A model generated the notes under the pieces. It was not told the DNA's origin, made no database searches, and worked only from the letters and a program-made list of their open reading frames with translations. DNA of 64,000 bases from Halomonas sp. BDJS001 (GTDB lineage: Bacteria; Pseudomonadota; Gammaproteobacteria; Pseudomonadales; Halomonadaceae): positions 1,984,001 through 2,048,000 of the forward strand of contig NZ_CP110535.1 of the NCBI RefSeq assembly GCF_026104355.1. The letters are read 5' to 3'. Below, in pieces: positions 1,726 through 8,596 of the stretch. Made by a program: the position numbers and the translations under genes. Numbering within the stretch: the stretch's first letter is position 1; every line of letters begins with the position of its first letter.

Positions 1726-2646
1726 CTAAAAGCTCGCCTCAACCTCCGCCAACTTATCATCCAGCGCCTGCAATACCTCGCACGCCAACCCATGGCGCTG
1801 GGCACTCTCAATCAACGGCCCCAAGATCGCCCCGCGCTCGGTGGGGCGTTTAGCCTCCACATCCTGCAACATCGAAGCCTTATTGTTCGCGGTGTTCTCC
1901 ACCACCTGCCACACCAGCGCCAACCACGCATCTTCACCATTGCCATCATTGGGCGGCGCAATGCCCTCGGCTAACATAATCGCCGCGACTTCCTTTACCA
2001 CTGCCACCACACGGCCCGCATAAGCTTCACCGCGCAATTCACCGTTACGCACACCATTCAACGCCACCAGTGGATTAATCGCCGCGTTCACCGCCAGCTT
2101 CTGCCACAAGCGTTGGCGAATATCATCCACCTTTGTGGCGGCAAGCCCTGCCTGGGTTAATGTTTGCGCCAGTTCCTCCGCCAGCGCACCGTGCTGGTTA
2201 TGCAAATCACCCACAAAGGTATGCCCACGCCCCGCATGCACCACGCCATCATCACCGGTTAGATAAGCACCTTCAGTTGTTGTCGCGCACAACACCGGCC
2301 CCGGCCACGCCTGAGTAATACGCGGCTGCGCTAAAAAACCGTTCTGCCACAGCACTAGCGGGGTAGAAGGGGAAATACAGTCAATAATGCCAGCAAGCGC
2401 CGACTCAGCCACCATGGCTTTGGTAGTGATATGTACAAAGGCGGGCGGTTCAGGCGTGTTTGATGCCAGTTGAGCCACAGTCAAGGAGTTTAACGGTAGT
2501 ACGCGCTGTTTGCCCTCTGGCGTTGTCAGTATCTGCCGAGCAGGCAGCGCACGGCGACCGAGTAGCGTAGTGGCCGCTATGGGTGAAAGCGAATGAGCCA
2601 GCAGGCGGCCAATGGCACCTGGGCCGAGTATCCAGTGGGTAGACAT
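1726..2646 (-). CDS. panE: 2-dehydropantoate 2-reductase (ketopantoate reductase)
   Basis: NADPH-dependent reduction of ketopantoate to pantoate, a step of pantothenate and CoA synthesis, in the cytosol. The 306-residue product opens with MSTHWILGPGAIGRLLA, a Rossmann GxGxxG motif at the very N-terminus as in PanE, so the start at 2646 is preferred over the longer upstream frame. The family pieces VHITTKA, LWQNGF and the central K-LAVNAAINPL segment (KLxxNxxxNxL) containing the catalytic lysine are present. It is convergent with the GST gene; the stop lies ten bases past the hairpin repeat. Confidence 0.9.
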   Translation of the reverse strand: MSTHWILGPGAIGRLLAHSLSPIAATTLLGRRALPARQILTTPEGKQRVLPLNSLTVAQLASNTPEPPAFVHITTKAMVAESALAGIIDCISPSTPLVLWQNGFLAQPRITQAWPGPVLCATTTEGAYLTGDDGVVHAGRGHTFVGDLHNQHGALAEELAQTLTQAGLAATKVDDIRQRLWQKLAVNAAINPLVALNGVRNGELRGEAYAGRVVAVVKEVAAIMLAEGIAPPNDGNGEDAWLALVWQVVENTANNKASMLQDVEAKRPTERGAILGPLIESAQRHGLACEVLQALDDKLAEVEASF

Positions 2647-3042
2647 TATCAAGCATGTACTCAACAGCGGCGTTGCCGCCAAGCTTACCGCATTTGGTTT
2701 AGGGTGGCGAAGGTGACAAAAGCCGAGCAAAGGGGACTAATGGCTAGTGACGGTGGTAAACAATGTCTGATAAGTTTGATGCTAAGTGAATTTGGTGGGT
2801 GAAGTGTCGATGCGTGACGGCATGTGATGTCCAATGTTGTCATGAGGCATTATTAGATGGCTGCTTTCGACCCTGAGCGGACATGCCAGGAAATGCAGTA
2901 GGCGCGCGAATTTTGGATATATAGCCTAATTAAAATAAATGTATTTAAAAATCATAAGCTTAGAAGAACCTAGCAGGCTGCATTTACCGGGGAAAAGTGC
3001 AAGCACGTTCATTCAATCATAGAGCGCGCCGTCTAATACACT
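2647..3042. other. Non-coding junction left of the cassette array
   Basis: About 400 bases with no convincing gene. The part near panE is GC-rich; from about 2900 it becomes strongly AT-rich (runs of A/T around 2925-2960), marking the change to the cassette block. No integron integrase gene and no recognisable attI site were found. The panE promoter must lie in the left part. Confidence 0.5.
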
Positions 3043-3049
3043 GTTATGA
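3043..3049 (+). other. Candidate left recombination core of cassette 1 (GTTATGA)
   Basis: GTTATGA directly upstream of the SIR2 gene resembles the GTT-containing insertion cores that end each attC in this array (GTTAGCA, GTTAACC, GTTATTT, GTTATAT). It would set cassette 1 at about 3043-4440. It could be an attI remnant or a genomic entry site; the short match makes this tentative. Confidence 0.35.
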
Positions 3050-3061
3050 CTAAAGGAGGAC

Positions 3062-4375
3062 ATGTTGAGCGAGTACTTCGAAATCGCATATGCAGCAGCA
3101 ACAAATAGATTGTGCCTGTTTACTGGTACTGGATTTTCTAAAGCTGTTTCTGATAATGAAGCTCCAAGTTGGCAGGGGCTACTGGAAGAGCTATGTGACC
3201 TATTGCCGAATCCAGAAGAAATCAAGGAATCCCTATTTCCTGAAGACAAACCAGCGCAACTTAGTTTAGAAGAGGCTGCTCAGGTCATCTCAATCAAGCT
3301 TTCTGCTATTGGTAGAAATATCCATGAAGAGATAGCCGAATTAATAGGGGAAGTAGACCTTGATGATGAAATTGAAGAAATCGTAGAGTTCTTCTCAAAT
3401 AGGTCCTTTAGGGTCATCACTACTAATTATGACAAGCTGGCTGAAAAGCTGACAGGTGCGAATAGCTGTCAATCAATTACACCTGGAAGGCCTATACCTA
3501 GGTCCTCTGCTAATGTAAAGGTTTACCATGTGCATGGTTCAGTCGACTCCCCTGAAAACATGGTGGTTACATCTGAAGACTATTTCAGGTTTATAAACAG
3601 CGATTCTTATTTTTCAAGAAAGTTGAGTACGGTACTACATGAAAATACGGTAGTAATTTTGGGCTACTCACTTGGTGATACTAACTTGAAGGCAATAATT
3701 AGTGATTACAAAGGTTTCTCTAAGAGCCATGTAATCGGGTCAAATATTTTTTTGGTTTCTAGGTCTTCTGTAGATCAACACGTCAAGGATTATTATTCAC
3801 ACTGCTACGGTATTCGGGTTATTGATGAAATTAATGCAGAGAGGTTTTTTCGAAAGTTAAATAATAAGATACCGAAGGTGGCAGGAATCGCAGAGCGCTC
3901 ACTGAGGAGCATAAGGAAAGTTGTACATGACGGCTTTCACTTTAAAGAAGCCTTTTTAAAGCTAGATGACTCATTCTATAGAATCATTTCTTCGCTATCA
4001 GCTGAAGGATTGAGCCTCAATGATGCAAGAGTTGTCGAAATGCTGGGTGAAGTTATTGAATCAAAGAGAGAGCTAACCTTAGAGCATAACGCTTGGGAGC
4101 AATACGAGCACCTTGCAGGTTGGTTGGTGTACCTTGCATCAATAATGGAGATTAAGGGCACTTCAATTGAAGACCAGTTTTTGGAGGCAACTCTTCGGTC
4201 AATGACTACGATGCGAAAAGAATATTACATTGGATATTCTTGGCATGCTTACAAGGCTTGGAAAAGGCGTTGGCCAACAGTTGTTGCATCCAATCGCGCA
4301 TTGATAAGAAGGCACATAGAAGACAATACCAGCTGGCCGGATGCTCTAGCTCTTGTAAACAGCATTGAGTCATAA
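3062..4375 (+). CDS. SIR2-like domain protein (cassette 1, probable anti-phage NADase)
   Basis: A 437-residue protein with an N-terminal SIR2-like NAD-binding domain (about 1-240) and an unrecognised helical C-terminal region. SIR2 signatures visible: FTGTGFS (residues 20-26, the GAGxS loop variant), TTNYD (120-124), HVHGS (156-160, candidate catalytic histidine) and the ILGYSLGD segment (199-206) common to defence-type SIR2_2 domains. Known members of this family (ThsA, DSR1/2, SIR2-HerA, SIR2-pAgo) deplete NAD+ on phage infection; that role here is inference. SD AAAGGAGG lies just before the ATG. The stop TAA is part of the attC-like site that follows, as in classic gene cassettes. Base composition is clearly more AT-rich than the flanks. 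Confidence 0.85.
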   Translation: MLSEYFEIAYAAATNRLCLFTGTGFSKAVSDNEAPSWQGLLEELCDLLPNPEEIKESLFPEDKPAQLSLEEAAQVISIKLSAIGRNIHEEIAELIGEVDLDDEIEEIVEFFSNRSFRVITTNYDKLAEKLTGANSCQSITPGRPIPRSSANVKVYHVHGSVDSPENMVVTSEDYFRFINSDSYFSRKLSTVLHENTVVILGYSLGDTNLKAIISDYKGFSKSHVIGSNIFLVSRSSVDQHVKDYYSHCYGIRVIDEINAERFFRKLNNKIPKVAGIAERSLRSIRKVVHDGFHFKEAFLKLDDSFYRIISSLSAEGLSLNDARVVEMLGEVIESKRELTLEHNAWEQYEHLAGWLVYLASIMEIKGTSIEDQFLEATLRSMTTMRKEYYIGYSWHAYKAWKRRWPTVVASNRALIRRHIEDNTSWPDALALVNSIES

Positions 4376-4447
4376 CAAGCCGCGGCAGGCGGATCAAATT
4401 TCCGCTCCTCCGTCGCTACAATTTGCCCGCTGCGCGGGGCGTTAGCA
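4370..4447 (+). other. attC-like recombination site 1
   Basis: Left core TCATAAC-AAGCCGC overlaps the SIR2 stop; right core GCGGGGCGTTAGC ends the unit. The arms between them are imperfectly complementary (GCAGGCGGATCAAATTT against CAATTTGCCCGCTGC), the expected L''/L' layout of a folded attC. This defines the end of cassette 1 and the start of cassette 2. Confidence 0.8.
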
Positions 4448-4461
4448 TTCAAGGAGAGCAC

Positions 4462-5406
4462 GTGGTTACGGCAAGTAAAATCAAGCAACTATGTAATCAG
4501 TGGTGCGAAGCCGCTCAGAATGATGGCGGCGGTTTTGCTATAGGCCATAATACAGAGCAATACCGTCTGTTGAGAAATGGCGTTCAATTTCATGAGTTAT
4601 GTTATTTTCAACTTATAACCTCGGTTGAGGGGCTAACTAAAGTACTCCTCCTCCCTGGGCTTAATACCGTAGTCGACCAAGATCATTATGGTCTCTGGTC
4701 GTGGTCGGCAGAGGTCGTCCTTTCAAGAGAAATTGGATATTTCGAAAATGAAGAGAGAGATCTGCGAAAGCTCTTCGAAACTGTCATACGGTCTGCATTA
4801 ACGCACTGTAGAAAGCCTACCGCTACAGAAGAAGAATGGCGTCAGCAAGTCGAAATTGAGAATCAAATATCTCATAACGCTAGGTACTTTATACAAGAAT
4901 CATCTACCGCGATGGCTTATTTATGCTTTCCCTTGCTCGAAGGTATAGCGAAAAAAACATGTTCAAATTATTTAGATCTCGATGGTCAGGTTATATCCGC
5001 TTTCTCAGTTCCTTCCAGGAATGGTGGCACGAGAACATATGATCCAAATAGTAGTCGCTGGAGCGACAAAAAATGTTCTAGTCTAAGAGATCTTCTTTGG
5101 CTGGTTTTCAATACAGTGGCAGATCAGCAGTTAAAAAACTCTATATCAGAATTTAGAGAACACATATCAAATTTAGATTCGTCGGAAGATCCATTTGATG
5201 TTATCTACCGTTGGAGAAACGAATCTTTGCATGGAACGACCAGTTTTCAGACAATAGGCGGCACTCTACTAAATTTGGTGTTATTGATAATTTTGCATCA
5301 ACTTAGCGCTGAGTATAGCGGCAAGAGAGAAGTTATAATCGAGCATTGCCGATGGAACACACAAGCAGGGGTGAGATTTCCATGGTCTTTCTATCCGCCC
5401 TACTAA
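4462..5406 (+). CDS. Unrecognised protein with HEPN-type R-x4-H motif (cassette 2)
   Basis: 314 residues from GTG 4462, chosen because AAGGAGAG lies 5 bases upstream; the longer frame starting at 4423 would lie inside the attC. I do not recognise the full-length family. Near the C-terminus WRNESLHG (R252-N253-E-S-L-H257) matches the R-N-x3-H active-site motif of HEPN ribonucleases, followed by a hydrophobic helix (LLNLVLLIILHQL), as in the last helix of many HEPN domains. The rest looks like a soluble helical protein. If the motif is functional it would be a metal-independent RNase, as in many abortive-infection or toxin systems; that is inference. It is AT-rich like the SIR2 gene and is a separate cassette. 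Confidence 0.7.
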   Translation: MVTASKIKQLCNQWCEAAQNDGGGFAIGHNTEQYRLLRNGVQFHELCYFQLITSVEGLTKVLLLPGLNTVVDQDHYGLWSWSAEVVLSREIGYFENEERDLRKLFETVIRSALTHCRKPTATEEEWRQQVEIENQISHNARYFIQESSTAMAYLCFPLLEGIAKKTCSNYLDLDGQVISAFSVPSRNGGTRTYDPNSSRWSDKKCSSLRDLLWLVFNTVADQQLKNSISEFREHISNLDSSEDPFDVIYRWRNESLHGTTSFQTIGGTLLNLVLLIILHQLSAEYSGKREVIIEHCRWNTQAGVRFPWSFYPPY

Positions 5407-5407
5407 A

Positions 5408-5464
5408 TGCTAACAAAGCAATGTTGCGGATTCGCTACGCTCACCGCAAATTGCGGCGTTAACC
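5408..5464 (+). other. attC-like recombination site 2 (short)
   Basis: Left core TGCTAAC, right core GCGGCGTTAACC. The arms pair well: TAACAAAGCAATGTTGCGG against the reverse complement of CCGCAAATTGCGGCGTTA. At about 57 bp it is near the minimum size of attC sites. It starts just after the HEPN-like gene stop. Confidence 0.8.
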
Positions 5465-5481
5465 CGTTTAAGGGGTCCAGT

Positions 5482-5988
5482 TTGAATATTGAAGTAAGTA
5501 ATGAAAAAACCGGTGATGATGCGAGAATACATCAGGTTACAGAGCAGGCGTTTTTAAGCGCGCCTCATACTGATCATACCGAGCATTTCATTGTAGATGC
5601 CCTTCGCCGTGCGGGAGCGCAGGCGATTTCTCAGGTGGCTAAAGCTGATGGAGAAATTATTGGCCATGTTGCGATTTCTCCGGTCACTCTTTCAGATGGT
5701 GCGACCGGCTGGTTTGGGCTCGGGCCAATATCTGTTCTTCCTGAATATCAAGGGCTCGGTATTGGATCTAAGCTAGTGCAGAGTTCTCTTGCCGCACTTG
5801 AAGCAATGGGTGCGTCTGGCTGTGTAGTGCTCGGTGACCCTGGTTATTATGGACGTTTCGGATTCAAGGTTGTAGATGGGTTGGTCTTTCCCGGTGTGCC
5901 TGCAGAGTATTTTCAGGCGCTATCGTTTTCCGACCAGTTCCCAAAGGGGGATGTTTCGTACCATGAGGCATTCTCAGCCCAGGGTTAA
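5482..5988 (+). CDS. GNAT N-acetyltransferase, YhbS-like (cassette 3)
   Basis: 168 residues from TTG 5482, preceded by AAGGGG; the upstream part of the open frame lies inside the attC and is rejected. It has GNAT motif A as VLPEYQGLGIGSKLV (acetyl-CoA pyrophosphate loop, Q/RxxGxG/A) and the YhbS/COG3153 pattern FGLGPISV and VLGDPGYYGRFGF. The acetyl acceptor is unknown; cassette-borne GNATs often modify small molecules, antibiotics or tRNA-linked amino acids. The stop overlaps the next attC-like site. Confidence 0.85.
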   Translation: MNIEVSNEKTGDDARIHQVTEQAFLSAPHTDHTEHFIVDALRRAGAQAISQVAKADGEIIGHVAISPVTLSDGATGWFGLGPISVLPEYQGLGIGSKLVQSSLAALEAMGASGCVVLGDPGYYGRFGFKVVDGLVFPGVPAEYFQALSFSDQFPKGDVSYHEAFSAQG

Positions 5989-6066
5989 CAAGGTCAAGCA
6001 CAGCGACAGCTTTTTCGCTGCGGCTTCGCCTCCACTACAAAGCTGCGCGTGTTGGCGGCGTTATTT
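5983..6066 (+). other. attC-like recombination site 3
   Basis: Left core GGTTAAC overlaps the GNAT stop codon; right core GGCGGCGTTATTT. Arms CAAGCACAGCGACAGCTTT and AAAGCTGCGCGTGTTGG are complementary with bulges, and a small inner hairpin (GCGACAGC..GCTGCGG) is possible. It closes cassette 3. Confidence 0.8.
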
Positions 6067-6086
6067 TTTTTGGAGAATTCTGAGTC

Positions 6087-6416
6087 ATGTCCAAAAATTT
6101 CAAGTTGAGAGCTGATGAAATCAGGGATGTTGCCAAAGGGTACGGAGGATGTATAGCAACGGATATGATTACCGTCCATGGAAAAAAAGTGGGCTACATG
6201 TATCGTGATGAGCCGCGAAACGATATGGATAGTGGCTGGTGTTTTATGTGGGGTCAGGAGTCGCAGAAGTACATGGATGATACAAGCAATCACGAAATAT
6301 ATGATGTAAACACAATTGCTAATTACAGTCCTGACATAGTCGAATTTCTTAATGCTCCATATGGTTCTGCATTCGAGAGAAATGCTGAGGGTAAGCTTGT
6401 TGAAATCGATGATTAA
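6087..6416 (+). CDS. DUF2185 / Imm33-like protein (cassette 4)
   Basis: 109 residues, ATG preceded by GGAGAATTC. The sequence GGCIATDMITVHGKKVGYMYRDEP, the SGWCFMWGQES stretch and IYDVNTIANYSPDIVEFLNAPYGSAFER match the DUF2185 family, which overlaps the Imm33 group of putative polymorphic-toxin immunity proteins. It is acidic and has no signal or membrane segment, so probably cytosolic. No toxin partner is present in the array, so an orphan immunity role is only a possibility. Its stop lies just before attC-like site 4. Confidence 0.75.
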   Translation: MSKNFKLRADEIRDVAKGYGGCIATDMITVHGKKVGYMYRDEPRNDMDSGWCFMWGQESQKYMDDTSNHEIYDVNTIANYSPDIVEFLNAPYGSAFERNAEGKLVEIDD

Positions 6417-6502
6417 ACATAACAAGCCGCTCAAATTCGTTACGGCCACAAAAAGCGTGGCACCGGACTCGTTAACGCTCGCCGTTTAGCGGGGCGTTAT
6501 AT
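6417..6502 (+). other. attC-like recombination site 4 (end of array)
   Basis: Left core ACATAAC (a perfect RYYYAAC) and right core GGGGCGTTATAT. Arms CCGCTCAAATTCGTTACG and CGTTAACGCTCGCCGTTTAGCGG are partly complementary, with a small inner stem (CCAC..GTGG). Beyond it, composition returns to GC-rich chromosome-like sequence. Confidence 0.75.
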
Positions 6503-6653
6503 CAGCACTACCTCAAAGACCGCTCTTGGCCGATAACGGCAATCCAGCTAGGGCCAACAGTGTCAGCCCCAGCGATCAATGAGCATCAGGATCGTTCACA
6601 AGTTCTCCAGGTCATGGCAACCCCGGGCATTGGACGCCAAATCACGACGAGGC

Positions 6654-8522
6654 TCAGCTCGACAGCCCTTCGTGACCAGGCACGAAACCGCCCAGCAAGC
6701 GGTCGATTTCCTTGGCAGGCATCGGACGGTAGAAGAAGAACCCCTGGATGAGGTCGCAATGCATTTCGCGAAGCAATGACAACTGTTCGGCGTTCTCGAC
6801 GCCCTCGGCCACCACCTCCAATCCCAACCGATGACCGATGAAGATGGCACCCTCCATGATGGCCCGATCCTTCGGCTGTGTGGGAGCGTCGTGGATGAAG
6901 GAGCGATCTATCTTCAGGGCGGTGACTGGAAAGTGCTTGAGATAGCTCAGGGAGGAATAACCGGTTCCGAAATCGTCGATAGCAATGTGAATACCGCGAT
7001 GATAGAGGCGCCGCAGATCCTCGAGGACGGTCTCGTCGGCTTCAATCAGGACATTCTCGGTCAATTCGATGCCGATATCCCGCGGGCCTAAGCCGTGACG
7101 CTGCAGCGAGTCCTCGAAGCTCTTGAGGGCATCGGGACGCACCAGTTGACGACCCGAGACATTGATGTCGATGCGGTGCTCATGAAATCCCTTGGCACGC
7201 CATTCCACCTGCTGGCGGCAAGCCTCTTCGATGACCCAGTCGCCCAGACGATGGATCAAACCGGAACGCTCGGCCAGCGGGATAAACTCGGCAGGCCAGA
7301 TTGGCGGGCCCTCGGTAGGCTCCCAGCGTATCAAGGCCTCGAGATTCTCTATTCGCCCACTGGCCGCCGAGACCTGGGGCTGGTAGTGGAGGGAGAATTC
7401 ACCGTTATCCAGGGCTTCCTCGAGTCGCGCCGAGAGATAGTGTTGGCGAACCAGCTCGTCATGGAGCTTCTGTTGGAAGAAACGTACAGCACCCCGGCCC
7501 TCCAGCTTTGCACGATTCTTGGCAACATCGGCATTACGGATCAATTCGCGTGACGATTCACCATTCTCGGGAAAGAGTGCCACACCCAGGCAGGCCGTGA
7601 CCTGACGCTCCCGACCATCCAGGACGAAAGGTTCCCGAAAGGCATTCTGGATATGACGAACGACCCGTCTGACATCAGAGGACAAGTGGACGCCGGGAAA
7701 GGCCAGCACGAATTCATCGCTAGAGACACGGGACACCAGGTCAGTGACCCGCTGGCACTCTCTCAGTCGCCGCGTCAGCTCAATAAGCAGGCGATCGCCC
7801 TGATCATAGCCAAGGGCATCATTGATCTCGACGAAGTGATCGATGTCCAGGTAGATGGTTGCCAGGCCATTGCCCTGGCGTCGACAGGAATCCAACAGAC
7901 TGTCCAGATCGACTTCGAAGGTCTGGCGGTTAGGGAGATGGGTGAGCCTGTCGAAATGGGTGGCGAATTCCAGGTCACGGTGGGCGCGCTTTTGGTCGGA
8001 AAGGTCGACATCCACGCAGAACATCAGGGGTGAGTCGGTATGCTCATTGAGCATCAGATGCTGCGAAAAGACCGATACCAGTTCACCGCTTTTGTGCTTG
8101 AGCTGGAGTTCATCGGCGGGTATATCGACCCCTTCTTTGATCCAGGCATCATGCGCCTGGATCACCCCGTCACGCATGAAGGCAGGAATGATCAGATCTT
8201 CCAGTAACTGTCCCAGGGCTTCCTCAGCGGTATAGCCATAGAGACGAGTGCTGCCCTCATTCCAGTAAATCACCCGCCGATCGCGATCATAACCCTGAAC
8301 CGCCACTTTCGGCAGGCTCTCCAGCAGGGCGCGGAATTGCTGCTCACTCTCCAGATACTGGCGGCGTACTAACTCGACTTCTTCCCTACCGGCATCATGC
8401 GAATCGATGCCATCAGTTGAAGATGTCTTTGACATCTTCAACACGAGTGCACCGGAAAAATTCCTGCGGTTCTCCTTCAGGCGTTCCGGATCTCTGTGAA
8501 GGCGGGGATCGCTGGCAGTCAT
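6654..8522 (-). CDS. PAS-GGDEF-EAL cyclic-di-GMP phosphodiesterase
   Basis: About 622 residues; start at ATG 8522 (a GTG three codons upstream at 8531 is possible, neither has a strong SD). Domains: PAS (QFRALLESLPKVAVQGYD... NEGSTRLYGY), GGDEF (about 185-345) and EAL (about 365-610). The GGDEF signature is degenerate (RVSSDEF), so cyclase activity is unlikely. The EAL domain keeps the catalytic set: NLEALIRW, DDFGTGYSSL, LKIDRSFI and VVAEGVEN. It is therefore expected to hydrolyse c-di-GMP, with the PAS domain sensing a ligand or redox state. There is no membrane segment. It is divergent from the 2-oxoglutarate oxygenase gene and shares an intergenic region with an inverted repeat. Confidence 0.92.
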   Translation of the reverse strand: MTASDPRLHRDPERLKENRRNFSGALVLKMSKTSSTDGIDSHDAGREEVELVRRQYLESEQQFRALLESLPKVAVQGYDRDRRVIYWNEGSTRLYGYTAEEALGQLLEDLIIPAFMRDGVIQAHDAWIKEGVDIPADELQLKHKSGELVSVFSQHLMLNEHTDSPLMFCVDVDLSDQKRAHRDLEFATHFDRLTHLPNRQTFEVDLDSLLDSCRRQGNGLATIYLDIDHFVEINDALGYDQGDRLLIELTRRLRECQRVTDLVSRVSSDEFVLAFPGVHLSSDVRRVVRHIQNAFREPFVLDGRERQVTACLGVALFPENGESSRELIRNADVAKNRAKLEGRGAVRFFQQKLHDELVRQHYLSARLEEALDNGEFSLHYQPQVSAASGRIENLEALIRWEPTEGPPIWPAEFIPLAERSGLIHRLGDWVIEEACRQQVEWRAKGFHEHRIDINVSGRQLVRPDALKSFEDSLQRHGLGPRDIGIELTENVLIEADETVLEDLRRLYHRGIHIAIDDFGTGYSSLSYLKHFPVTALKIDRSFIHDAPTQPKDRAIMEGAIFIGHRLGLEVVAEGVENAEQLSLLREMHCDLIQGFFFYRPMPAKEIDRLLGGFVPGHEGLSS

Positions 8523-8596
8523 GGGATCCACTTAAAGAAAAAACACTGTCAAGAGCCATCATAATGGCAACGAGAGGGGCACTTTGTTGTGATTAT

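Follow-up and report, generated by a model that had tools for sequence, protein, structure and literature searches.

In the 64-kb window (the whole stretch of DNA analysed), four gene cassettes are situated between the ketopantoate reductase gene panE, the host locus of the array, and a gene for a PAS-GGDEF-EAL protein. The cassettes are preceded by a leader with an attI core and followed by a conserved right end (Table 1). The array is AT-richer than its surroundings, as the initial annotation had stated, its GC content being 43.7% compared with 56.6% and 55.9% in the flanks.

Table 1. Positions of the cassette array, its ends and the flanking genes in the 64-kb window.
Feature	Position	Strand	Description
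Ketopantoate reductase (panE/apbA)	1729..2646	-	Left flank, host locus of the platform; Pfam ApbA, ApbA_C
Left terminal inverted sequence CGACCCTGAGCGGACAT	2868..2884	+	Outer limit of the conserved unit; abrupt rise of conservation in 26 de-replicated copies
Leader	2885..3013	+	Homologue of the intI-attI intergenic region with intI removed; blast to intI-linked loci, genus pattern search, tree
attI core	3014..3045	+	Crossover G^TT between 3043 and 3044; like attI cores adjoining intI genes
Cassette 1	3044..4441	+	CDS 3062-4375, 437 aa, SIR2_2 (NADase-type) defence-like protein; PF13289 E=1.5e-25; PADLOC PDC-S25 and ThsA-like
attC1	4370..4447	+	Covariance model E=3e-17
Cassette 2	4442..5458	+	CDS 4462-5406, 314 aa, no family assigned
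attC2	5408..5464	+	Covariance model E=1.2e-7
Cassette 3	5459..6060	+	CDS 5482-5988, GNAT acetyltransferase; PF00583 E=1.7e-10
attC3	5983..6066	+	Covariance model E=3.6e-15
Cassette 4	6061..6496	+	CDS 6087-6416, Imm33 immunity-domain protein; PF09951 E=3.4e-33
attC4	6417..6502	+	Covariance model E=1.2e-4
Right end TTATATCAG-N6-CTMAAAGDCCGCTTYTGGCCG	6497..6532	+	Conserved block in 42 de-replicated copies
PAS-GGDEF-EAL protein	6654..8531	-	Right flank; Pfam; orthologs in 16 other congeners

The four TAACAA...GCGTTA palindromes that had been read from the sequence were borne out, since an R/L-box scorer returned exactly the same bases with scores of 13.9-16.4, against a background in the shuffled 64-kb sequence of 1.0 hit scoring at least 13 and 0.2 hits scoring at least 14. 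The covariance-model check proposed for these sites was also run. The model R2, which was trained on 11 attCs adjoining integrase genes of other species and had its structure set by hand, matched all four attCs of the array (E 3e-17 to 1.2e-4), and the next best match in the 64 kb was not significant (E = 1.9). An earlier covariance model built from a plain MAFFT alignment with no base pairs recovered only two of the sites, the Rfam scan gave no match, and DNA folding did not separate the four attCs from shuffles (z -0.7 to -1.6, bottom strand). The stop codons lie where the initial annotation had placed them: cassettes 1 and 3 have theirs inside the core, whereas that of cassette 2 precedes the core by 4 bases and that of cassette 4 by 3 bases. 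An attC-like stretch with 84% identity to attC4 was also observed in a Shewanella phage (MZ568829.1:33196-33281).

The intI gene is indeed absent from the window, and genome-wide we found just two truncated N-terminal intI remnants and no full-length intI. Both broken genes have attCs nearby (G000:C1:2659910-2660266, L001, and C1:1159977-1160327, L002; G000 denotes this genome). The internal deletion in L001, which keeps the N terminus and a C-terminal tail, is common to the congener G100, and L002 is broken differently. In addition, the search by which attCs were counted genome-wide revealed further single or paired sites at G000:C1:722983-725451, 3631726 and 2772985. The claim that the window holds integron cassettes without an adjoining integrase is fully supported, both by the covariance-model matches and by the occurrence of cassette 4 in other arrays.

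Judging from where their relatives occur, the four cassettes have different histories. Cassette 4 recurs elsewhere as an edge-cut unit together with its attC: positions 6058-6501 are 95% identical to arrays of the congeners G007 and G100, both of which begin at an attI next to a broken intI, with the similarity ending precisely at both edges of the cassette. Of cassettes 1 and 3, the coding parts were found elsewhere. The stretch 3039-4380, which covers cassette 1 up to the start of its attC, is common to the congener G072 (92% identity) in another context, and relatives of this cassette are associated with attCs in some genera and lack them in others, e.g., Erwinia and Pantoea; in Halomonas sp. 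PR-M31 such a relative is the lone cargo of the same type of platform. The SIR2 domain of the cassette 1 protein is related to ThsA/DSR2-type antiphage NADases (Pfam, PADLOC), and the cassette probably represents an NAD-depleting antiphage gene. Homologous DNA of cassette 3 was found in two species (85% and 74%), in one of which the match ends at the cassette edges. No copy of cassette 2 was found elsewhere, and its protein had no relative in the Pfam, PADLOC, PDB, plasmid or viral searches; it contains the motif RNESLH, a weak match to the HEPN-like R-x4-H, and its fold model (pLDDT 39.5) was uninformative and was discarded.

In blast, the region 2867-3046 upstream of cassette 1 matched the leader and attI found next to intI at other loci of the genus, among them the broken one of this genome itself, and it is, on the strength of this homology, an attI-homologous site with its leader. 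This implies that the array begins at attI and that intI is gone. Strong matches to the leader were essentially confined to the family: they were obtained only in Halomonadaceae, in two genera, plus Halomonas sp. PR-M31. When the leader was scanned for a cassette promoter Pc, the consensus matches were no better than those in shuffles.

The left terminal sequence agrees with the right end, read as its reverse complement, at 12 of 18 bases (p 0.0004 against shuffles). The left end also stands alone, at one locus without a leader behind a DUF427 gene, and may accordingly represent a resident hairpin repeat and not a private end of the unit. This end sequence constitutes half of a hairpin repeat and was rarely found across the order. 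The right-end motif occurs in 56 of 82 congeners, with a reversed control near zero, and is often located directly 3' of an attC; a motif scan of the intI-linked loci then compared gave no match to it. We considered whether the right end might be the right half, still intact, of an empty attI, and rejected this reading (no cassette-free copy was seen). At three loci (L010:4500-4730, L112 and L141) the right ends are preceded by an apparent group II intron maturase end and not by a full attC. No target-site duplication was evident by eye in the fetched platform copies. For the comparison with an empty site that had been suggested for this locus, the congener G026 has panE and the GGDEF gene joined with about 205 bp between them, but its divergence is too great for the point of insertion to be placed.

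The attI-like core was detected in 30 of the 82 congeners (Vreelandella/Halomonas), in up to 5 copies per genome, with no match in the reversed control, and in 22 of these 30 no intI scored above the cut-off. Of the 41 attI copies that could be evaluated, about 26 are followed within 15 kb by a right end in the same orientation, as tallied by hand from the listed matches, where about 0.5% would be expected by chance; for about one third of the copies no right end lies within reach under the strict pattern. The copies have in common the abrupt outer limit at their left side and, at their right side, the conserved block, and in those that were fetched the order is end, leader, attI, cassettes and right end. 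The completeness of this fetched set (L172-L191) is not a frequency, because its members were chosen for having both ends. The left flanks are unrelated between locus groups, and platforms are present at the panE and DUF427 loci in many species. A second platform is located in the same genome at G000:C1:4552732-4554488 (L172); it carries two or more attCs, and its cassettes are not those of the array studied here. The site after the DUF427 gene is a hotspot (L220-L249, at about 1840), where the same hairpin-like end is followed, depending on the species, by the attI platform, by a second leader type (L222, L229, L237, L249) or directly by two predicted TIR-like defence genes (L248). Elsewhere, the platform cargo of G030 (L177:2819-4000) includes a strong match to the Lamassu LmuA nuclease family (E 5e-156), and the first platform gene in G036 (L188:570-1433) encodes a tyrosine recombinase of 288 aa that might serve as a local integrase.

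The panE-locus platforms of six other species are orthologous to the one studied here, yet their cassettes differ. Homology between orthologous platforms ends at the attI core, with similarity at the panE locus dropping at the G^TT point, and in G073 it resumes at the edge of attC4 and the right end. Moreover, the leader and the flank tell different stories at these loci: compared with G073, this genome has 94% identity in the flank and 69% in the leader, whereas compared with G069 the values are 70% and 92%, respectively. In the leader tree, 41 platform leaders form one clade, which is separated from 12 intI-linked leaders by branches with 99% support; inside the platform clade the locus groups are not clades and the resolution is poor. 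The single leader clade together with the disagreement between leader and flank similarity at orthologous loci indicates that the array is a member of a dispersed platform family of single origin. It is thus one of the dispersed integrase-less attI platforms, and not an isolated or independently decayed integron.

We therefore consider it likely that the region 2868-6532 is an integrase-less integron platform belonging to a dispersed Halomonadaceae family, with a leader of apparently single origin and with cassettes loaded in trans. The leader would go back to the intI-attI region of an integron of the genus and would have arisen, apparently on a single occasion, through the loss of intI, after which the leader-attI unit would have dispersed to many loci, one copy being inserted between panE and the GGDEF-EAL gene. 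Cassettes would enter at attI and be exchanged via attC by an IntI acting in trans, encoded elsewhere or formerly present, and the leader would supply the cassette promoter. Loading in trans is suggested by the near-identity of the attI cores and by the sharing of cassettes, and spread of the platform by the copy number and the unrelated flanks. The unit would have been moved by some recombinase or transposase. No transposase was identified, and hairpin-directed recombination is as possible as transposition, because the end is half of a hairpin repeat that is also present without the leader. Only tentatively would we go further and propose that Halomonadaceae carry a distinct mobile element in the form of a small attI platform that has defined ends but no genes, spreads to new loci and receives its cassettes from integron integrases acting in trans.

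Ordinary decay would make each array an old chromosomal integron that lost its own intI independently and in place, with attI and a few cassettes as the remnants. The two arrays with truncated intI and nearby attCs in this genome fit such a history, and the authors of IntegronFinder view CALINs as degraded integrons (PMC9024848). However, this account is already weakened by the single clade of platform leaders apart from the intI-linked ones, by the shared outer end at many unrelated loci and by the common right end, to which the motif scan of the intI-linked loci then compared gave no match; we regard it as quite improbable. Highly improbable in our view is the notion that chance genomic sites of the attG type took up cassettes through a diffusible IntI and that the common flanks are a repeated target. 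Integration at attG is experimentally known (Loot et al. 2024, as cited in PMC12444791), but the left side of the array is an attI homologue with a leader of about 180 bp instead of a minimal GTT site, and this homology largely refutes the idea.

The remaining alternative concerns mobility: the platforms could have been inherited in place and made similar by interspecies homologous recombination or gene conversion, with the unit itself not mobile. The recurrence of platforms at the panE and DUF427 loci in many species and the lack of a visible target-site duplication would both agree with this. At the same time, the presence of up to five loci in one genome and the lack of relation between the left flanks of different locus groups require at least some dispersal, and we consider inheritance in place unlikely. 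Under the preferred reading, that of a dispersed platform loaded in trans, the array, supposedly an integron fossil, has more in common with a reusable docking port. If the platforms do form a mobile class, one cell could hold several independent cassette ports.

Class 1 integrons flanked by MITEs also represent a repeat-bounded part of an integron without a working intI that is possibly mobile. The integron mobilization unit (Poirel et al. 2009, as cited in PMC9229058) resembles the platform in the same respects. Unlike both, the platforms end in inverted sequences of about 17-21 bp and not in MITE copies, and they are chromosomal, do not belong to class 1 and occur in many copies across species. 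MITE copies flanking a class 1 remnant, by which an integron mobilization unit is recognised, were not found here, and the sequence and the boundaries differ. The defence-like cassette genes recall the sedentary chromosomal integrons described as stores of antiphage genes (Darracq et al. 2025, as discussed in PMC12409362), although, set against that account, the platforms are small, integrase-less and present several times per genome.

In layout, the array resembles the CALIN of IntegronFinder 2.0, defined by at least two attCs without a neighbouring intI (PMC9024848). In sequenced genomes, CALINs reach about the same number as complete integrons and have mostly been taken for debris, and attI sites outside class 1 were not searched for in that work (PMC9024848). 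With four attCs and no intI nearby, the array is formally a CALIN, as the initial annotation had called it. Nevertheless, this label was incomplete, as neither the leader and attI ahead of the cassettes nor the conserved right end had been recognised; of the parts of a complete integron, intI in cis is absent and attI is present, as recognised by homology only. In the literature covered, which left subscription papers mostly outside its scope, we came upon no description of attI platforms that are dispersed and lack an integrase. If many CALINs hide such platforms, they would be active docking ports served in trans, and the view of where cassettes land and are expressed would change. The genus, with its many platforms, few integrases and antiphage-type cargo, offers natural material for testing this. 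CALINs at conserved loci of Xanthomonas (PMC12444791) and the dispersed CALINs and SALINs of Shewanella (PMC9229058) are likewise integrase-less cassettes at several loci away from intI, and the accessible parts of these reports describe neither an attI nor a common bounded unit at those loci. What sets the platform apart from the CALIN as defined (PMC9024848) is its own attI with a leader, its conserved right end and its many copies with varying cassettes.
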